This document shows, in pieces, positions 6,442-16,263 of a DNA stretch of 30,695 nt. This DNA comes from a virus. The notes under the pieces are model-generated. The model was given only the letters and a program-made list of their open reading frames with translations. It ran no database searches and had not been told where the DNA came from. Within the stretch, counting starts at the first letter, position 1. Each line of letters begins with the position of its first letter. The stretch covers positions 1-30,695 of the IMG/VR virus record IMGVR_UViG_3300027901_000022, one strand, 5' to 3'. A program made the translations under genes and the position numbers.

Positions 6442-9400
6442 ATGCCAGTTTCACAAGCTACAGCTACAGCAAGTACTACTACAACATCTGCAACATATGG
6501 ATTGTTGTCTGGTATGACTCTGACTCCAGGTGCAGGAAACTACATCCTTTCATTTGATGCATCTGCTCAATGTAGTGATGAATCCAGAGTATTCTTTCAA
6601 GTATTTGTTAATGGTGTGGCTGTAGGACATACCCAAAGAGTCTTCTTTATGGAAGGTTCTATTGTCAATAGACAAACTAGTGTAAAGATTTATGCTTACC
6701 TTCCAAATGTTGGTGCTGGACAAGCAGTAGAAATTAGATGGTATAGGGATACCGCTGGAACGGCTACTTGTTATGATAGAACATTAGTTTTACAAAAAGT
6801 TAATGCATCTGATATCAGTCAAGCAACCGCAACCGCTCTGACAAATACTACCAGCACTACAAACGTACAGATGAACAGCATGACTCTGACTCCAGGGGTT
6901 GCTGGTAATTACATAATTTACTTCTCCTCATCCATATACGGAACATCGGAAGCAGATAATTATCTTTCTGTTTATATCAACGGAGTACAGGTTACTCATA
7001 GTATAAGAAGAAATTTTCAAGATGCTTCTACTCCTAATACTGAATATATTTTCGGTCTTGTCATTGGTGCATCCGTTGGGGCTAGTGATACAATAGAAAT
7101 CCGCTGGAGAACTTCTTCTGGTGACACGGCATATGCACGTAGCAGAACTTTAATAGCTCAAAGAATAACTAGTTATAATCAAGTAACTGGCACATCCACG
7201 CTTCAAACTACTTCTGCTACCTATGGCTTAATGGGGTCAATGGCAATCACTCCTGCCGCTGGAAGCTACATTGCGTTCTTTACTACAAGTGTATATCTAA
7301 GTACATCAACCAATTCAGAGATACGGTATACCTTATATAGTGCAGGAGCGCAAATTGCTCATACGGCACGTATATCTGAATATGATTCTTCATATGACCA
7401 GATAACTCCTCTTCCAGCCGCTACTCATGCGTATATAACAGGTCTTACTGGATCACAGCAAGTTGATGTTAGATGGAATAGGGAAACTGGTACTGCAAAT
7501 GTGATTAACCGTACATTTGTTCTTGTTCCAGCGGAAGTAAGCTCTTCTTCAAGTTCTACTTCTTCGTCAAGTTCAAGCTTTAGTGGTTCAAGCTCATCTT
7601 CGTCAAGCTCCAGTTCTCTAAGCTCTTCGTCAAGTAGCTCATCTTCATCGTCCAGTTCGTCAAGCAGTTCCTCTTCGTCATCGTCAAGTTCCTCTTCGTC
7701 ATCGTCAAGTTCCTCATCCTCAAGCTCTTCGTCAAGCTCTACAAGCTCTTCTTCAACTTCTTCTTCTTCTGCTTCAAAGGCTACGGTAACATGGGGTCAC
7801 GATACAGGAGTAGAGGAAGATGTTGCCAGAGATTTTTCTGGAAACTGGGAACTATCTAACGTCACAGTAAGCGGTTCGGGTGATTCTGAAACATTAACCT
7901 TCTGGTGTCCTACAGCTACAGCTATTTCAGAGGAATGGCTTTTAGGAGCAATGTCTTCTGCTCAAATCGTTTTAGACAAATATGATGCCTTGGCAGAGGG
8001 GCCAGCAATCGGAGTAGAATATAAAACTTCTACAACAAAAATAGGATTAGGTAGTATAGGGTGGACTCCGTATAACGGAAATGAGTTTACTAGTTTAGGA
8101 TGGGTGCAGATAAGAATTTTCAAAGGTCTTGACGTACATGCGGAAGCAGGAATACTGGGAAGTACTGCTACTGACTCTGTATCCGCTTCCATTTCAATAC
8201 CTCCATCTGGTTACTATGCTGAACCTTGTGGATGTCCTTTAAATAGAGTAGTTGTGGCTGGTGTGTCATGGGAAGATGCATCCACAGGAAGTTATGTTGC
8301 TTCGTGTCAATTTAACGGCATAGACATGACTTTAATATCTGGTGCGGAAGCAGTAGCTCCTAATAGCAGAATAAGCAATATTCAGCTTTATGCAATTTAT
8401 GAAAACCAGTTACCATCTGTAGGTGGAGAGTATACTATAACCGCTCAGATTTCTGGAGCTAATGAACCAGATGTTCAACCATACTTAACTGCCGTAGTTC
8501 TACAGGATATTAAACAAAGAATACCAGAAGTAAGTAAAACGATAGAAATACAAAGAGCGGCTGGTTTACAAACATTTTCTCATTCTGTACCAGTAAGTGC
8601 TGGTGACTCATTTAGTCATATAATTCTACATCATTTGATCAATAGTGAAGGAATTGGAGATTCCCCACCTAGTGGTGGTGTGTATTTATCTCATAGTAAT
8701 AGTCAAATTGAAGTATTTAATGAAGCTAATGATAACAGTACAGTAGGATTAACTTATAAAACAGTTCCATCTGGTGGTGGCACATATACATGGAGTCATA
8801 CTTTAAGTAGTGGTGTAATAATTCAAAGACATATGATTTTCGCAAGTCTATGGGATAGGGAACCATGCTTAAATCCCACTACTATAGATGACGTTACTCT
8901 GACAAGCTCATCTTCGTCAAGCTCAAGTGAATCATCTTCGTCAAGTTCTTCGTCAAGCTCCAGTTCTCTAAGCTCTTCAAGCTCTTCTCTTTCATCTTCA
9001 TGTCCTCCTACTATTATAGAAGATATAGGTCTGCAATCCTCATCCTCAAGCTCCAGTTCATCTAGTCAATCGTCTTCGTCAAGTTCGTCTTCGTCATCTA
9101 GTAGTTCGTCAAGTTCAAGCAGTTCGTCTTCGTCCAGTTCGTCCTCTTCAAGCTCAAGCTCCAGTTCCAGCGAATCTTCGTCCAGTTCGTCCTCAAGTTC
9201 TTCTTCTTCGTCCAGTTCCAGTTCGTCCAGTTCGTCCTCAAGTTCTTCTTCTTCGTCCAGTTCCAGTTCGTCCAGTTCGTCAAGTTCATCCTCATCGTCA
9301 AGCAGTTCAAGCTATAGCTCATCCTCATCGTCAAGTTCTTCTTCGTCCAGTTCCAGTTCGTCCAGTTCGTCCTCATCGTCAAGTAGCTCTTCTTCGTCAT

Positions 9401-12400
9401 CTAGTAGTTCGTCTTCGTCTTCGTCAAGTTCAAGCGAGTCATCTTCAAGTGCTGTTCCGTTTGGTTGTCCTGTAGATGTTACAATGAACACATGTACAAT
9501 AAGCGGAGGAGATCACATTTCTCTATGCAATTGTTTTGATGACGATGTGTTATGTATTAATGAATGTACTGGTGCTCCAGGTTTTGATGCTGATTTTACT
9601 TTTGAAGGATTGAATCCTTCTTTTCAATATACAGTTACTATAAGATTTAGATATAATCCTGCCAATCCTGCTCATATTATAAAATTAAGAATATATAACT
9701 ACAATACTCTTTCTTATGATAACGTAACGGCAGATTCTACAGATTTCCCACAAAATGCTAACTACCAGACTAAGGTATTTAACTTACCTAGTACAATGAC
9801 TAATTACGTTAGTGGTGGTGTGGCTGTACTTAAAACCATACATACGTCACCTGGAAATACACTTCACAAATTTTGTATAGACTGTATGAATTTAGCTGTA
9901 GGGTCATCTTCGTCAAGTTCATCCTCATCGTCACTTAGCTCTTCGTCAAGTTCCAGTAGCTCTTCATCCTCAAGTAGTTCGTCCTCAAGCTCTAGCAGTT
10001 CGTCAAGTAGCTCAAGCAGTTCGTCCTCAAGTTCTAGTAGTTCGTCCTCATCGTCAAGTAGCTCCAGTAGCTCATCTTCATTTTCTAGTAGCTCATCCTC
10101 AAGTTCAAGTAGTTCGTCTTCGTCATCCTCAAGTTCAAGTAGCTCCAGTAGCTCATCCTCAAGTTCAAGTAGCTCCAGTAGCTCATCCTCATTTTCTAGT
10201 AGTTCGTCTTCGTCTTCATCGTCAAGTAGCTCATCCTCAAGTTCAAGTAGCTCATCCTCATCCTCAAGTTCTTCTTCATTTTCTAGCAGTTCGTCCAGTT
10301 CGTCAAGTAGCTCATCGTCAAGTTCAAGTAGCTCATCGTCAAGTTCAAGTAGCTCATCGTCAAGTTCTAGTAGTTCATCCTCAAGCTCAAGCTCATCCAG
10401 TTCCAGCGAATCTTCGTCAAGTAGCTCAAGTAGCTCATCGTCAAGTTCTAGTAGTTCGTCAAGCTCAAGCTCCAGCGAATCTTCATCCAGTTCCAGCGAA
10501 TCATCGTCAAGTAGCTCAAGTAGCTCATCGTCAAGTTCTAGTAGTTCGTCAAGTTCAAGCTCCAGCGAATCTTCGTCAAGTAGCTCAAGTAGCTCATCGT
10601 CAAGTTCAAGTAGTTCGTCAAGTTCAAGCTCCAGCGAATCTTCGTCAAGTAGCTCTTCATCGTCAAGTAGCTCATCGTCAAGTTCCAGTAGCTCATCGTC
10701 AAGTTCCAGTAGTTCGTCTTCGTCATCGGAAAGTTCAAGTAGCTCTTCATCGTCAAGTAGCTCTTCCTCAAGTTCTAGTAGTTCGTCCTCAAGTTCAAGT
10801 AGCTCATCGTCAAGTTCCAGTAGTTCGTCTTCGTCATCGTCAAGTTCCAGTAGTTCGTCTTCGTCATCGGAAAGTTCAAGTAGCTCTTCATCGTCAAGCA
10901 GTTCGTCCTCAAGTTCTAGTAGTTCGTCTTCGTCAAGCTCCAGCTTTAGTAGTTCGTCAAGTTCAAGTAGCTCATCTGAAAGTTCAAGTAGCTCAAGTAG
11001 TTCGTCTTCGTCATCCTCAAGCTCAAGTAGTTCGTCTTCATCGTCAAGCAGTTCAAGTAGCTCATCGTCAAGTTCAAGTAGCTCAAGCAGTTCAAGTTCT
11101 TCCTCTGAAAGTTCAAGTAGTTCGTCTTCGTCATCGTCAAGTTCCAGTAGTTCGTCTTCGTCATCGTCAAGTTCAAGTAGCTCATCGTCAAGCTCTAGTA
11201 GTTCATCTTCGTCAAGCTCCAGCTTTAGTAGTTCGTCAAGCTCTTCATCAGAATCATCTTCCTCAAGTAGCTCCAGCGAATCAAGTAGCTCATCCTCAAG
11301 TTCAAGCAGTTCGTCCTCAAGTTCTAGCAGTTCGTCTTCGTCAAGCTCCAGTAAATCAAGTTCAAGTAGCTCAAGTAGCTCATCTGAAAGTTCATCTTCG
11401 TCAAGCAGTTCGTTCTCTTCGTCAAGTAGCTCAAGTAGCTCATCCAGTTCGTCAAGCAGTTCGTCCTCAAGCTCCAGCGAATCAAGTAGTTCAAGCAGTT
11501 CGTCCTCAAGTTCTAGTAGTTCCTCCTCATCTTCTTTTAGCTCATCCTCATCCAGTTCATCAAGCAGTTCGTCCTCAAGTTCTAGTAGTTCGTCAAGCTC
11601 AAGCTCCAGTAAATCAAGTTCAAGTAGCTCCAGTAGCTCATCTGAAAGTTCATCTTCGTCAAGTAGCTCATCCAGTTCGTCAAGCAGTTCGTCCTCAAGT
11701 TCTAGTAGTTCGTCTTCGTCAAGCTCTTCAAGTAGCTCATCCTCAAGTTCAAGTAGCTCATCCTCAAGTTCAAGTAGTTCGTCTTCGTCAAGCTCCAGTT
11801 CTCTAAGCTCTTCAAGCTCTAGTAGTTCATCCAGCGAATCATCTTCGTCAAGCAGTTCGTCCTCAAGTTCTAGTAGTTCGTCTTCGTCAAGCAGTTCATC
11901 CTCATCCAGTTCTTCCTCATCTGAATCATCTTCAAGCTCAAGCGAATCAAGCTCAAGCTCCAGTATTAGTTCATCTTCAATTTCTTCTTCCTCATCATCA
12001 GTTAGCTCATCGTCAGTTAGCTCATCGTCATCTAGTAAATCTTCGTCAAGTGAATCTTCGTCAAGTTCGTCAAGTTCGTCTAGCGAATCAAGTTCTAGCA
12101 GTTCCAGTTCTGTTAGCTCAAGCAGTTCGTCACGGTCATCTTCGTCAAGCTCAAGTTCGTCAAGCTTTAGCAGTTCGTCAAGCTCAAGTTCGTCAAGCGT
12201 AAGCAGTTCTTCTTCTTCGTCCAGCGAATCAAGTTCAAGCAGTTCAAGTTCTTCCTCTGAAAGTTCATCCTCTTCATCAAGCTCCAGTTCGTCAAGCAGT
12301 TCTGAATCATCCTCTTCAAGCTCAAGTTCGTCAAGCAGTTCGTCCTCATCCAGTTCTTCCTCAAGTTCGTCAAGCAGTTCCAGCGTGAGCAGTTCCAGTA

Positions 12401-13146
12401 GTTCTGTATCTTCGTCAAGTTCCAGCGTGAGTTCTTCTTCAAGTAGTTCCTCATCTGTGAGTTCTTCTTCGTCAAGTGAAAGTTCATCTTCGTCTTCGTC
12501 CAGTTCGTCTTCGTCTTCGTCAAGCTCCAGTTCCGTAAGTTCCTCATCCAGTTCATCTTCGTCAAGTAGCTCATCGTCCTCAAGCTCAAGTTCTTCAAGT
12601 TCAAGTTCCTCAAGTAGTTCGGTTAGCTCATCTTCAAGCTCTGTATCATCTTCTTCTTCGTCATTTAGTTCATCCTCATTTAGCTTTAGTTCTTCAAGCT
12701 CCAGCTTGTCTTCAAGCTCTTCGTCTAAGTCATCGTCTTCCTCATCATTTAGAGAAGAAGGAGGAGGAGGATATCCTGTATATCCTGTAGCACCAAGAAG
12801 ACCAGAATTTATTTGGTTCGATATTTCTTCCTCTTCGTCAAGTAGCTCTTCGTCAATATCCAGTAGCTATAGCAGTAGTTCATGGTCATCAACCTCAAGC
12901 TCTTCAAGTGTGAGCAGTTCTTCAAGCTCAAGTGCTATCAAAGTTACTGTACAGATACCAAAGAAATTTAATAAACAAATGATAATAAAGGTAACGGAGC
13001 CTAAGAGGAAGAAACCAAAGAAAGAAATTAGAATCAATGTTACCTTGAAAGAAGAAGTAAAAGAAGATTTGATTAAAGCCATACCAGCAAAGGAGAAAAC
13101 AAAACAAGCGATTGGAATAGATATAAAAACGATCAAATCTAGTTAA
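6442..13146 (+). CDS. Giant modular poly-serine virion protein (2234 aa)
   Basis: AAGGAA precedes ATG 6442. Order of modules: three tandem repeats of about 120 residues (roughly 3-122, 127-244, 247-365), each with an (S)QATATA/TSTL start, a LTPGAGNYI-like block and an EIRW near its end; a Ser linker; a WGHDTGVEED module shared with the upstream gene; a Cys-containing beta-rich domain (about 560-815); Ser linkers; a Cys-rich domain (about 1010-1150); roughly 950 residues of almost pure Ser with scattered Glu, Phe, Val, Leu and Lys; a Gly/Pro/Tyr patch (EEGGGGYPVYPV); a last Ser linker; and a basic C-terminus (EPKRKKPKKE). No membrane anchor or LPXTG motif is seen. Very probably an extended surface fibre with globular domains on flexible Ser stalks. 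Confidence 0.75.
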   Translation: MPVSQATATASTTTTSATYGLLSGMTLTPGAGNYILSFDASAQCSDESRVFFQVFVNGVAVGHTQRVFFMEGSIVNRQTSVKIYAYLPNVGAGQAVEIRWYRDTAGTATCYDRTLVLQKVNASDISQATATALTNTTSTTNVQMNSMTLTPGVAGNYIIYFSSSIYGTSEADNYLSVYINGVQVTHSIRRNFQDASTPNTEYIFGLVIGASVGASDTIEIRWRTSSGDTAYARSRTLIAQRITSYNQVTGTSTLQTTSATYGLMGSMAITPAAGSYIAFFTTSVYLSTSTNSEIRYTLYSAGAQIAHTARISEYDSSYDQITPLPAATHAYITGLTGSQQVDVRWNRETGTANVINRTFVLVPAEVSSSSSSTSSSSSSFSGSSSSSSSSSSLSSSSSSSSSSSSSSSSSSSSSSSSSSSSSSSSSSSSSSSSTSSSSTSSSSASKATVTWGHDTGVEEDVARDFSGNWELSNVTVSGSGDSETLTFWCPTATAISEEWLLGAMSSAQIVLDKYDALAEGPAIGVEYKTSTTKIGLGSIGWTPYNGNEFTSLGWVQIRIFKGLDVHAEAGILGSTATDSVSASISIPPSGYYAEPCGCPLNRVVVAGVSWEDASTGSYVASCQFNGIDMTLISGAEAVAPNSRISNIQLYAIYENQLPSVGGEYTITAQISGANEPDVQPYLTAVVLQDIKQRIPEVSKTIEIQRAAGLQTFSHSVPVSAGDSFSHIILHHLINSEGIGDSPPSGGVYLSHSNSQIEVFNEANDNSTVGLTYKTVPSGGGTYTWSHTLSSGVIIQRHMIFASLWDREPCLNPTTIDDVTLTSSSSSSSSESSSSSSSSSSSSLSSSSSSLSSSCPPTIIEDIGLQSSSSSSSSSSQSSSSSSSSSSSSSSSSSSSSSSSSSSSSSSSSSSESSSSSSSSSSSSSSSSSSSSSSSSSSSSSSSSSSSSSSSSSSSSSSYSSSSSSSSSSSSSSSSSSSSSSSSSSSSSSSSSSSSSSSSESSSSAVPFGCPVDVTMNTCTISGGDHISLCNCFDDDVLCINECTGAPGFDADFTFEGLNPSFQYTVTIRFRYNPANPAHIIKLRIYNYNTLSYDNVTADSTDFPQNANYQTKVFNLPSTMTNYVSGGVAVLKTIHTSPGNTLHKFCIDCMNLAVGSSSSSSSSSSLSSSSSSSSSSSSSSSSSSSSSSSSSSSSSSSSSSSSSSSSSSSSSSSSFSSSSSSSSSSSSSSSSSSSSSSSSSSSSSSSSSSSSFSSSSSSSSSSSSSSSSSSSSSSSSSSSSFSSSSSSSSSSSSSSSSSSSSSSSSSSSSSSSSSSSSSSSSSSESSSSSSSSSSSSSSSSSSSSSSESSSSSSESSSSSSSSSSSSSSSSSSSSSSESSSSSSSSSSSSSSSSSSSSSSESSSSSSSSSSSSSSSSSSSSSSSSSSSSSSESSSSSSSSSSSSSSSSSSSSSSSSSSSSSSSSSSSSSSSSSSSSSSESSSSSSSSSSSSSSSSSSSSSSSSFSSSSSSSSSSESSSSSSSSSSSSSSSSSSSSSSSSSSSSSSSSSSSSSSSSSSESSSSSSSSSSSSSSSSSSSSSSSSSSSSSSSSSSSSSSFSSSSSSSSESSSSSSSSESSSSSSSSSSSSSSSSSSSSSSSSKSSSSSSSSSSESSSSSSSSFSSSSSSSSSSSSSSSSSSSSSESSSSSSSSSSSSSSSSSSFSSSSSSSSSSSSSSSSSSSSSSSSKSSSSSSSSSSESSSSSSSSSSSSSSSSSSSSSSSSSSSSSSSSSSSSSSSSSSSSSSSSSSSSLSSSSSSSSSSESSSSSSSSSSSSSSSSSSSSSSSSSSSSESSSSSSESSSSSSISSSSISSSSSSVSSSSVSSSSSSKSSSSESSSSSSSSSSESSSSSSSSVSSSSSSRSSSSSSSSSSFSSSSSSSSSSVSSSSSSSSESSSSSSSSSSESSSSSSSSSSSSSSESSSSSSSSSSSSSSSSSSSSSSSSSSVSSSSSSVSSSSSSVSSSSSSSSSVSSSSSSESSSSSSSSSSSSSSSSSSVSSSSSSSSSSSSSSSSSSSSSSSSSSSSVSSSSSSVSSSSSSFSSSSFSFSSSSSSLSSSSSSKSSSSSSFREEGGGGYPVYPVAPRRPEFIWFDISSSSSSSSSSISSSYSSSSWSSTSSSSSVSSSSSSSAIKVTVQIPKKFNKQMIIKVTEPKRKKPKKEIRINVTLKEEVKEDLIKAIPAKEKTKQAIGIDIKTIKSS
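9904..12753 (+). repeat. Poly-serine-coding low-complexity tract
   Basis: About 2.85 kb encodes nearly uninterrupted serine, using all six Ser codons intermixed (TCN and AGY). Non-Ser residues are single substitutions, chiefly Glu (GAA), then Phe, Val, Leu and Lys. Shorter tracts lie at about 5965-6070, 7532-7773, 8906-9000, 9034-9450 and 12824-12938. The frame is maintained throughout, although antisense and alternate frames are also largely open. Confidence 0.9.
10402..10655 (+). repeat. 69-bp tandem repeats inside the serine tract
   Basis: The landmark TCCAGCGAATC (Ser-Ser-Glu-Ser) starts at 10402, 10471, 10492, 10561 and 10630. The spacings are 69, 21, 69 and 69 bases, i.e. 23-codon units plus one 7-codon partial duplication. 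Sequence between landmarks is near identical, indicating recent in-frame duplication. Confidence 0.8.
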
Positions 13147-13808: not shown

Positions 13809-14030
13809 ATGCCAGTCAAACCAGAGAAAGGACAAAAGAGATGGCAGTATATGGATAAGTGTATGCATGAGATCACTCATAAATCAAAAAAAGAAAGATC
13901 ACATGAACAAAGACTAGCCATTTGTTTAGGACAATGGGCTGAATTCTCTAACGAAGATGCCATATTGAATAAATTTGATTTACTTCTAATTGGAGAAGAG
14001 ATGAAATGTCCAGAAGGACAAAAATACTGA
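13809..14030 (+). CDS. Small head-region protein; frame probably continues past its TGA
   Basis: The conventional frame gives 73 residues. Residues 1-47 are basic, with KKERSHEQRLAICLGQW, a pattern seen in small phage head proteins (HEQ..AICL..W). Residues 50-63 (AILNKFDLLLIGEE) match the tag found at the N-termini of neighbouring proteins, here internal and ending in I-G-E. The frame then reads KCPEGQKY and meets TGA at 14028. After it the same frame continues PVKGECVPVGTG and runs to a TGA at 14118 that overlaps the next gene's ATG. The sibling at 14556-15020 carries the unbroken version (CPKGQVW...RKCVP). The full product would therefore be 103 codons including the recoded one. Confidence 0.65.
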   Translation: MPVKPEKGQKRWQYMDKCMHEITHKSKKERSHEQRLAICLGQWAEFSNEDAILNKFDLLLIGEEMKCPEGQKY

Positions 14031-14120
14031 CCAGTTAAAGGTGAATGTGTACCAGTTGGTACAGGAAGAAAAATCAGACAAAGACAAAGACAAGGCAATG
14101 GAAAGGGAATGGGAGAATGA
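14028..14120 (+). other. Probable UGA-readthrough extension of the preceding gene
   Basis: The in-frame TGA at 14028-14030 is followed by C, the leakiest bacterial stop context. The 29 codons after it keep the C-x(n)-C spacing of the CPxGQ...CVP motif, end in a basic Gln/Arg/Gly tail, and stop in an ATGA overlap with the gene at 14117, the same coupling used throughout this operon. The decoded residue is unknown; the sibling has Trp-Asp near this position. Confidence 0.55.
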
Positions 14121-14555: not shown

Positions 14556-15020
14556 ATGGACATCATTAATAAAATAGATAAACTACTAGGAGATCAAACT
14601 TCTGGAGCCACCACTACAGGTAACGTAGCAACTAACCTAGCTAAAGGACATGTAGATGTTATAGGTGGTGTACGTAGAGGAGTGAGTAGTATAGGTTATC
14701 AATGTCCGAAAGGTCAAGTATGGGATAAGACTACAAGGAAATGTGTTCCTTCAAAGAATGAGTCAAGTGTTGTGGGAGGATCATATATAGCTGGAAGTAC
14801 AGTTAACATTGTGGGATCTGGACAAACCAGAGTTTGGGGAGACAGGCTCAGATGGATGATTGACCTTGATAGGAAAGAACCAGTAGAAGAAGAAATACCA
14901 GATAAAGCAGAACAAAATATTGAGATGAGGAAAGGATTAAAGTTTAACAACATATTAGGAGCCTACGTTCCGCAAGGAGATACGGAGATTGAGCCAAGAT
15001 ATGTTGAAGGAGAAGTATGA
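14556..15020 (+). CDS. Tagged protein with CPxGQ...CVP motif
   Basis: This 154-residue protein has N-terminus MDIINKIDKLLGDQTSG, closely matching the operon tag but with Gly-Asp in place of xE. It continues through a Gly/Thr-rich linker and a YQCPKGQVWDKTTRKCVPS motif at about residues 48-66, then a Gly/Val-rich stretch and an acidic region (PVEEEIPDKAEQ). The Cys motif also occurs in the gene at 13809. ATG 14556 is chosen over an upstream GTG at 14544 because the tag starts at Met-Asp. The stop TGA overlaps the next gene's start. Family unknown; head-associated by context. Confidence 0.6.
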   Translation: MDIINKIDKLLGDQTSGATTTGNVATNLAKGHVDVIGGVRRGVSSIGYQCPKGQVWDKTTRKCVPSKNESSVVGGSYIAGSTVNIVGSGQTRVWGDRLRWMIDLDRKEPVEEEIPDKAEQNIEMRKGLKFNNILGAYVPQGDTEIEPRYVEGEV

Positions 15021-15235: not shown

Positions 15236-15532
15236 ATGTCTGATATAGATATTCTAGACAAAATTGAAGTAGAACAGTTAATCCAAGACACAAAAGAATT
15301 CATGGAAGATCCAGAGCTTGCAGAAGCCGCTGTTAAAACCGCTGGCTGGACAAAATCTTCTGTAGAAAAATTTGGGAAGACAATCGGAAAAGAACCTGGG
15401 AAAAAAGGATTCTTTGATGCATGTGTTATGAAGATGAAGGGAAGGGTAAACGATCCAGAAGGATTTTGTGCAAGTCTTAAAGACAAATACTACGGAAATA
15501 CGGACTGGAGAGGAAAAGACAAAGAGAAGTGA
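15236..15532 (+). CDS. Phage head-region protein with KMKGRV..PEGFCASL motif
   Basis: This 98-residue protein follows GGAGG. The N-terminus MSDIDILDKIEVEQLIQ resembles the operon tag, shifted by three residues. The C-terminal half has FFDACVMKMKGRVNDPEGFCASLKDKYYG, matching a small conserved block common in phage head operons (MKGK...P.AFCAWLH.K). Its TGA stop at 15530 overlaps a GTG that begins the possible extension of the next gene. The function of this block is not established to my knowledge. Confidence 0.65.
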   Translation: MSDIDILDKIEVEQLIQDTKEFMEDPELAEAAVKTAGWTKSSVEKFGKTIGKEPGKKGFFDACVMKMKGRVNDPEGFCASLKDKYYGNTDWRGKDKEK

Positions 15533-15576
15533 AGCTAAAGCAATTTCTTAAAGAAGGTCAATGACCGCTTCAAACC
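15529..15576 (+). other. Probable N-terminal tag of the next protein, separated by an in-frame TGA
   Basis: In the frame of the gene at 15577, a GTG at 15529 (overlapping the upstream stop as GTGA) reads VKLKQFLKEGQ, then TGA (15562-15564) followed by C, then PLQT and the Met at 15577. The peptide before TGA resembles the tags nearby (compare MRLKEYL on the minus strand) and ends with L-K-E. ATG 15577 itself has no ribosome site, supporting initiation upstream with UGA decoded. Confidence 0.45.
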
Positions 15577-16263
15577 ATGTACGGTGAAATGCCTACAGGT
15601 GGTAGGTTTGGCCCTTATACAGAATATGAATTAGCCGCTCAAAACATGGCAGAAGCGGCACATTGCATACTTGGATCATTGGCTAAGTTAAATAGTAATA
15701 CTCCTTTTTGGATGGAGAAAGGACACATTAAAGAAGAAATGGGTATTATAGAAAGAGCCATGAAAGAGTATACTAGAGATGTTTATCTTGGACGTGTCTT
15801 TAGACCTGAAAATGCTAAGAAAACAATAGAGTCTGTTAAGAAAGCCGCTCCTAGATTAGAAAAAGATGCAATGAGCGCAAGACGTAGAGTAAGTAAAAAT
15901 CTACCAAAGGAAATACAGGATCTAGCAAAATATGCATATGATTTTTTAGTTCTTTTAGCAAGAAAGCTTTTAGATAGTGTAGAGCAAATAGAAAAAGGAA
16001 ATATGGTAAACGCTTATAGAAATACTATACTACAAGCTTCTGTTAAAAATCTAAGAAAAATGGTAGATAGGTTTTTGAAGTTATCAGATGAAGGAACAAT
16101 AGAAGATCCATATGTAAAACCACAACCCAAGCTAAAAGTTAAACGTGTTCCTAAAGGAACCATAGCAAAGATGACAAAGAAACAAAAAGAAGAGCAAAAG
16201 AACAGAAGAAAAGAATTAGAAAAAATGGACATAATGGATCTGCTATTCAAAAAGGATATATGA
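15577..16263 (+). CDS. Helical head-region protein
   Basis: This 228-residue protein, counted from ATG 15577, is largely alpha-helical. It begins YGEMPTGGRFGPYTEYELA and continues with amphipathic helices (LAAQNMAEAAHCILGSLAKL) and a Lys/Glu-rich C-terminus (KMTKKQKEEQKNRRKELEK), ending DLLFKKDI. The lack of a ribosome site at 15577, and the tag-like peptide upstream in frame behind a TGA, suggest that the native protein starts at GTG 15529. The stop overlaps the next ATG. Family not recognised; a head scaffold or internal protein is plausible. Confidence 0.65.
   Translation: MYGEMPTGGRFGPYTEYELAAQNMAEAAHCILGSLAKLNSNTPFWMEKGHIKEEMGIIERAMKEYTRDVYLGRVFRPENAKKTIESVKKAAPRLEKDAMSARRRVSKNLPKEIQDLAKYAYDFLVLLARKLLDSVEQIEKGNMVNAYRNTILQASVKNLRKMVDRFLKLSDEGTIEDPYVKPQPKLKVKRVPKGTIAKMTKKQKEEQKNRRKELEKMDIMDLLFKKDI

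Follow-up and report, generated by a model that had tools for sequence, protein, structure and literature searches.

Does the TGA at 14028–14030 of this phage DNA end a gene, or does it encode an amino acid? The window analysed here (the whole stretch of 30,695 nucleotides) covers 30.7 kb of a virus record and is a fragment of a phage genome whose replication set is T4-like and includes a family B DNA polymerase, a UvsW-like helicase, an SbcD-like exonuclease and a DnaB-like helicase. Within it, an open reading frame starting at the ATG at 13809 runs for 73 codons up to the TGA and then continues in the same frame. Our analysis suggests that this TGA is very probably a selenocysteine (Sec) codon, which would be decoded by the host through a SECIS-like hairpin, and that the UGA of a second gene at 15562 is read likewise (Table 1).

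Table 1. Positions of the two putative selenoprotein genes of the window and of their elements.
Feature	Position	Strand	Remarks
Putative selenoprotein gene 1	13809..14120	+	ORF read through one TGA; TGA kept in the L014, L015, L016 and L019 orthologues
In-frame TGA, proposed Sec codon 1	14028..14030	+	13 distinct sequences have it; TAA, TAG and TGG never occur
bSECIS-like hairpin 1	14048..14063	+	TGTACC-AGTT-GGTACA, loop start 23 nt downstream of the TGA
ATGA overlap, gene 1 stop and next gene start	14117..14120	+	
Putative selenoprotein gene 2	15529..16263	+	Start GTG 15529; proposed Sec is residue 12
In-frame TGA, proposed Sec codon 2	15562..15564	+	TGA in L019; TGT in L015, L016, L018 and L187
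bSECIS-like hairpin 2	15591..15607	+	GCCTAC-AGGTG-GTAGGT, loop start 32 nt downstream of the TGA

The preliminary description had read CPEGQKY-TGA-PVKGECVPVG in one frame, and the TGA is indeed in frame with the ATG of gene 1. Beyond it the frame holds 29 codons (PVKGECVPVGTGRKIRQRQRQGNGKGMGE) and ends at the TGA at 14118–14120, inside the ATGA overlap with the next gene, as had also been stated. The product of gene 1 would be a protein of 103 residues with the proposed Sec at residue 74, in which an N-terminal Cys-pair helical domain is combined with a CPxGxxY-U-PxxxxCVP motif. Its predicted structure is poor (pLDDT 69), and the motif appears there as a weak beta hairpin. The motif was correctly said to be shared with the gene at 14556–15020, which carries the Asp version (CPKGQVW-D-KTTRKCVP). 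The match of this gene to the chitin-binding family CBM_14 stays below threshold, and its orthologue in the related contig L017 has Cys at the motif position.

The bases of the TGA are the same in six further contigs, which come from six metagenome records and are 98.6–99.98% identical to the window, and a sequencing error at 14028 is thereby ruled out. These near-identical contigs are distinguished by indels within a poly-serine stretch; it belongs to a 2234-residue protein (6442–13146) with enormous poly-serine tracts. The window also encodes a papain-family (C1) cysteine protease at 1823–2695 (Pfam PF00112).

Divergent relatives were gathered by a scan with the neighbouring exonuclease. The four gene 1 orthologues named in Table 1 share 58–65% identity and the same TGA, which is followed in all four by an additional domain of roughly 60 residues. 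In L017 the motif is absent, yet both domains are joined in one uninterrupted ORF. L021 and L022 have the TGA motif in another protein, at its C-terminal end, and scanning IMG/VR with the pattern brought in L030, L031, L032, L033, L044, L046 and L048, where the motif again lies in other proteins; these additions include contigs of 86, 120 and 248 kb. Two further matches of the pattern scan, L047 and L049, were discarded as chance. The TGA is codon 22 in L044 and codon 13 in L031, in proteins of about 180 residues. Thus 13 distinct sequences, from divergent phages and in several proteins unrelated to one another, keep the same TGA, and the codons downstream of it show a dN/dS of about 0.1–0.3, indicating purifying selection. 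This conservation is far more than chance would give, and the claim that coding continues past the TGA is strongly supported.

To see which codons occupy this position, any codon was allowed in one survey. Among the matches listed (at least 120), Asp was the usual residue at the position, followed by UGA and a small number of Cys codons, and UGA was the only stop. The Asp version corresponds to a CPxGxxYDPxxxxCVP motif widespread in other phages. In a complete scan of IMG/VR for T-purine-N codons at the position, TGA was found in 20 contigs and Cys in L014 and L017, and TAA, TAG, TGG and Tyr codons were all absent. The other Cys matches of that scan were set aside, three of them (L079, L127 and L136) being one unrelated chance sequence and one more being a chance match. 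Among the family 1 orthologues of the window gene, none carries Cys at precisely the TGA position; in this family Cys occurs only in other copies of the motif, in L014, in L017 and in gp114 of cyanophage S-CAM8 (L055), which reads CPEGTKW-C-P. L014 carries the motif twice, about 300 bases apart (5972 and 6283), once with Cys (TGT) and once with TGA, and the Cys copy sits in the gene preceding the TGA copy. A scan of cellular genome contigs revealed no copy of the UGA motif, since its matches all looked like chance and lay outside similar genes. Homologues of the gene 1 or gene 2 protein were not detectable in isolated phages.

The observation made at 14028 was borne out but was incomplete, because another in-frame TGA of this kind is present in the window. 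An unfiltered six-frame scan for UGA was swamped by antisense frames, and a filtered search isolated two sense sites. The second lies near the start of gene 2, whose GTG start codon sits in a GTGA overlap with the gene ending at 15532; plain ORF calling starts gene 2 at 15577. The N-terminus of the window protein, VKLKQFLKEGQ-U-PLQTMYGEM, has the counterpart MKLKRYLKEQ-U-PLQTMYGEM in L019 (U being TGA in both), and L015, L016 and L018 have MKLKKYLKEQ-C-PLQTQYGEM or a close variant, in which Cys is encoded by TGT. The TGT codon is also present in L187, which is 44% identical. The six near-identical contigs keep the TGA. Exchange of UGA and Cys between orthologues is a classic sign of selenocysteine, and this second site removes most of the doubt about Sec.

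Both TGAs are followed by a hairpin. In the bSECIS model, a stem of 4–16 bp carries a loop of 3–9 nt with a G among its first two bases, the distance from UGA to loop is 16–37 nt, and the free energy is at most -7.5 kcal/mol (PMC13188914). A hairpin was present at 14 of the 14 family 1 UGA sites tested, with the loop 23–26 nt downstream and the loop sequence AGUU, GUU, GGU, GGC, GUA, GGG or CGGGU. The geometry of the model (loop, upper stem of at least 4 bp, loop G and distance) was found at all 14 family 1 sites and at both family 2 sites. The energy limit was reached by the window (-7.5 kcal/mol), by 7 other family 1 sites and by both family 2 sites, and the remaining 6 of the 14 family 1 hairpins were weaker (-6.3 to -7.3 kcal/mol). 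UGA sites averaged -7.3 kcal/mol (n=14) and non-UGA sites -3.1 kcal/mol (n=74; p=6e-6), and the hairpins of non-TGA versions were weaker or absent. No Rfam family matched the hairpins.

Synonymous recoding was used as a control. The diverged family 1 lineages gave p values of 0.02–0.06, and the close group of the window together with L022 gave 0.22–0.40. Combined over family 1, the synonymous shuffles gave p=3e-5, a value that is optimistic, as combined p values are here, because the lineages are related. In the window lineage the family 1 hairpin is no more stable than its synonymous shuffles (p=0.30), and the signal comes from the diverged lineages. When stem arms were swapped between lineages the pairing was lost (p=8e-4 with seven lineages, 1e-5 with nine); the arms were set by hand for this count because MAFFT failed to place the loop gap. 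The gene 2 hairpin gave p=0.026 in the window and 0.014 in L019, and three Cys versions of gene 2, which have no hairpin, gave 0.41–0.73. The L019 hairpin, GTCCAC-AGGTG-GTGGAC, differs from that of the window by two compensatory double changes.

Three causes had been offered for the interrupted frame in the preliminary description, namely readthrough, stop reassignment and a recent nonsense mutation, and of these only readthrough keeps some plausibility. Programmed readthrough would use the hairpin and the UGA-C context to let a near-cognate tRNA (Trp or Cys) decode the UGA part of the time, so that a short and a long product are made. Hairpins can act as readthrough elements, and the long C-terminal extension in L014–L019 is under selection. 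The UGAC context is also constant, but the scan pattern itself required CC after the TGA. Readthrough leaves unexplained why the orthologous codon of family 2 is Cys, why TAG, TAA and TGG are absent, and why the hairpins follow the bSECIS rule for loop G and spacing. With the UGA at codon 22 in L044 and codon 13 in L031, the short product would be only a stub. Readthrough might be expected to be indifferent to the inserted residue and to use stops interchangeably, unless its signal is specific for UGA; only UGA was found, and Cys is the sense alternative among T-purine-N codons and in family 2. Sec is favoured over plain readthrough because only UGA occurs as a stop, Cys stands at the family 2 codon and the SECIS-like hairpin covaries, and we consider readthrough unlikely.

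Reassignment of UGA to Trp or another amino acid, in the phage or its host, is highly improbable. Coding does run through the UGA, and its Trp or Tyr neighbours lend some plausibility to a Trp reading. However, TGA terminates seven other genes of the window, several of them in tight overlaps, and Trp is encoded there by 145 TGG codons, a codon that the T-purine-N scan never found at the site. Coding density is high under table 11 and changes little when TGA is read as sense. The relatives carry tRNA-Trp(CCA), and no suppressor tRNA with a UCA anticodon was found in the tRNA-rich stretches of related contigs, which are mostly fragments; the pattern of code 4 type reassignment, with UGA widely used as sense and a UCA suppressor tRNA, is thus not seen. 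Some related large phages (L162 16785, L165 3167, L166 14299 and L169 3422) have near-complete tRNA sets, some with tmRNA. The same phages carry a tRNA with a CUA anticodon, called tRNA-Pyl by ARAGORN and a possible amber suppressor; TAG is still a stop in them, and their coding density shifts only modestly when TAG is read as sense. Finally, a lone TGA in one motif would look like a mutation if only one genome were known, but a nonsense mutation, a sequencing error or a decayed gene with a relic frame is refuted by the relatives, since the TGA is conserved in six other contigs and across diverged phage lineages, the codons past it are under purifying selection, and it recurs in a second family.

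The reading as selenocysteine accounts best for coding on both sides of the codon, conservation as UGA only, the Cys of family 2 and the covarying stems, all of which were established by sequence comparison. Against this reading weigh, for family 1, the predominance of Asp in other phages, the missing orthologous Cys, the six hairpins that are weaker than the energy limit and the unremarkable stability of the hairpin in the window lineage. The hairpin, lying downstream within the coding sequence, would recruit SelB and Sec-tRNA of the host, and the ribosome at UGA 14028 would insert Sec rather than terminate, yielding a phage protein of 103 residues that contains a Cys-Sec-Cys motif. Gene 2 would be decoded by the same mechanism. 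The full-length product would then depend on selenium through the UGA. Neither a tRNA-Sec above the Rfam cut-off nor an EF-Tu/SelB GTPase or SelA was found in 17 related contigs, mostly fragments; therefore decoding would rest on the host, which would presumably supply SelA, SelB, SelD and tRNA-Sec. Sec-using bacteria are common in anoxic sediment of the sulfate-methane transition. One of several source metagenomes (3300002052) comes from anoxic estuary sediment of a sulfate-methane transition zone (PMC4411801).

The function of the two proteins can be suggested only in outline. Neither has a Pfam match above cut-off. The gene 2 protein is predicted as a bundle of helices whose N-terminus, where the proposed Sec lies, has low confidence, and no fold matched this model at E<=0.001. 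They may be small phage proteins that use Sec together with a neighbouring Cys (C-U-C in family 1) for redox chemistry or for cross-linking, and the virion is one possible place of action. More broadly, it is likely that these phages have selenoproteins of their own, with a cassette of UGA and SECIS (CPxGxx[YW]-U-PxxxxC[VI]P) placed in different proteins, Cys and Sec exchanged in a second family, and output tied to the selenium and Sec machinery of the host. If confirmed, phages exploit the Sec pathway and their hosts are restricted to Sec-decoding bacteria, which provides a new signal for host prediction. It would also account for genes that pipelines truncate at UGA, and make testable why a phage protein needs selenium.

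Bacteria, archaea, eukaryotes and a few animal viruses all have known selenoproteins. No phage selenoprotein was found in the open PMC literature (subscription papers and preprints were outside its scope), and phages are unmentioned in the prokaryotic selenoproteome reviews examined, including PMC13188914. Predicted tRNA-Sec genes have been reported in huge wastewater phages (PMC10747093). A link between phages and Sec is suggested there by tRNA genes only, whereas the present contigs yielded UGA genes but no tRNA-Sec. The S-CAM8 gp114 motif (CPxGxxWCPxxxxC) and the Asp version, which weakly resembles CBM_14, have the same spacing of Cys, Gly, aromatic residue and Pro, but Cys or Asp replaces the UGA. 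The two genes resemble bacterial selenoprotein genes of the fdhF type in having a UGA within the ORF, Cys homologues, and a hairpin 16–37 nt downstream with G in the first two loop positions. Unlike that type, they are phage-encoded families without a Pfam match above cut-off, and several of their hairpins are short and weak. The selenoproteins of poxviruses (glutathione peroxidases; PMC8310308) are likewise virus-encoded and rely on host machinery. However, those are captured host enzymes of eukaryotic viruses with a eukaryotic SECIS, whereas the present genes belong to bacterial viruses and encode these viruses' own proteins, for which no known enzyme is a match. The Sec mechanism itself is already known; the apparent novelty is that phages use it, in new protein families.
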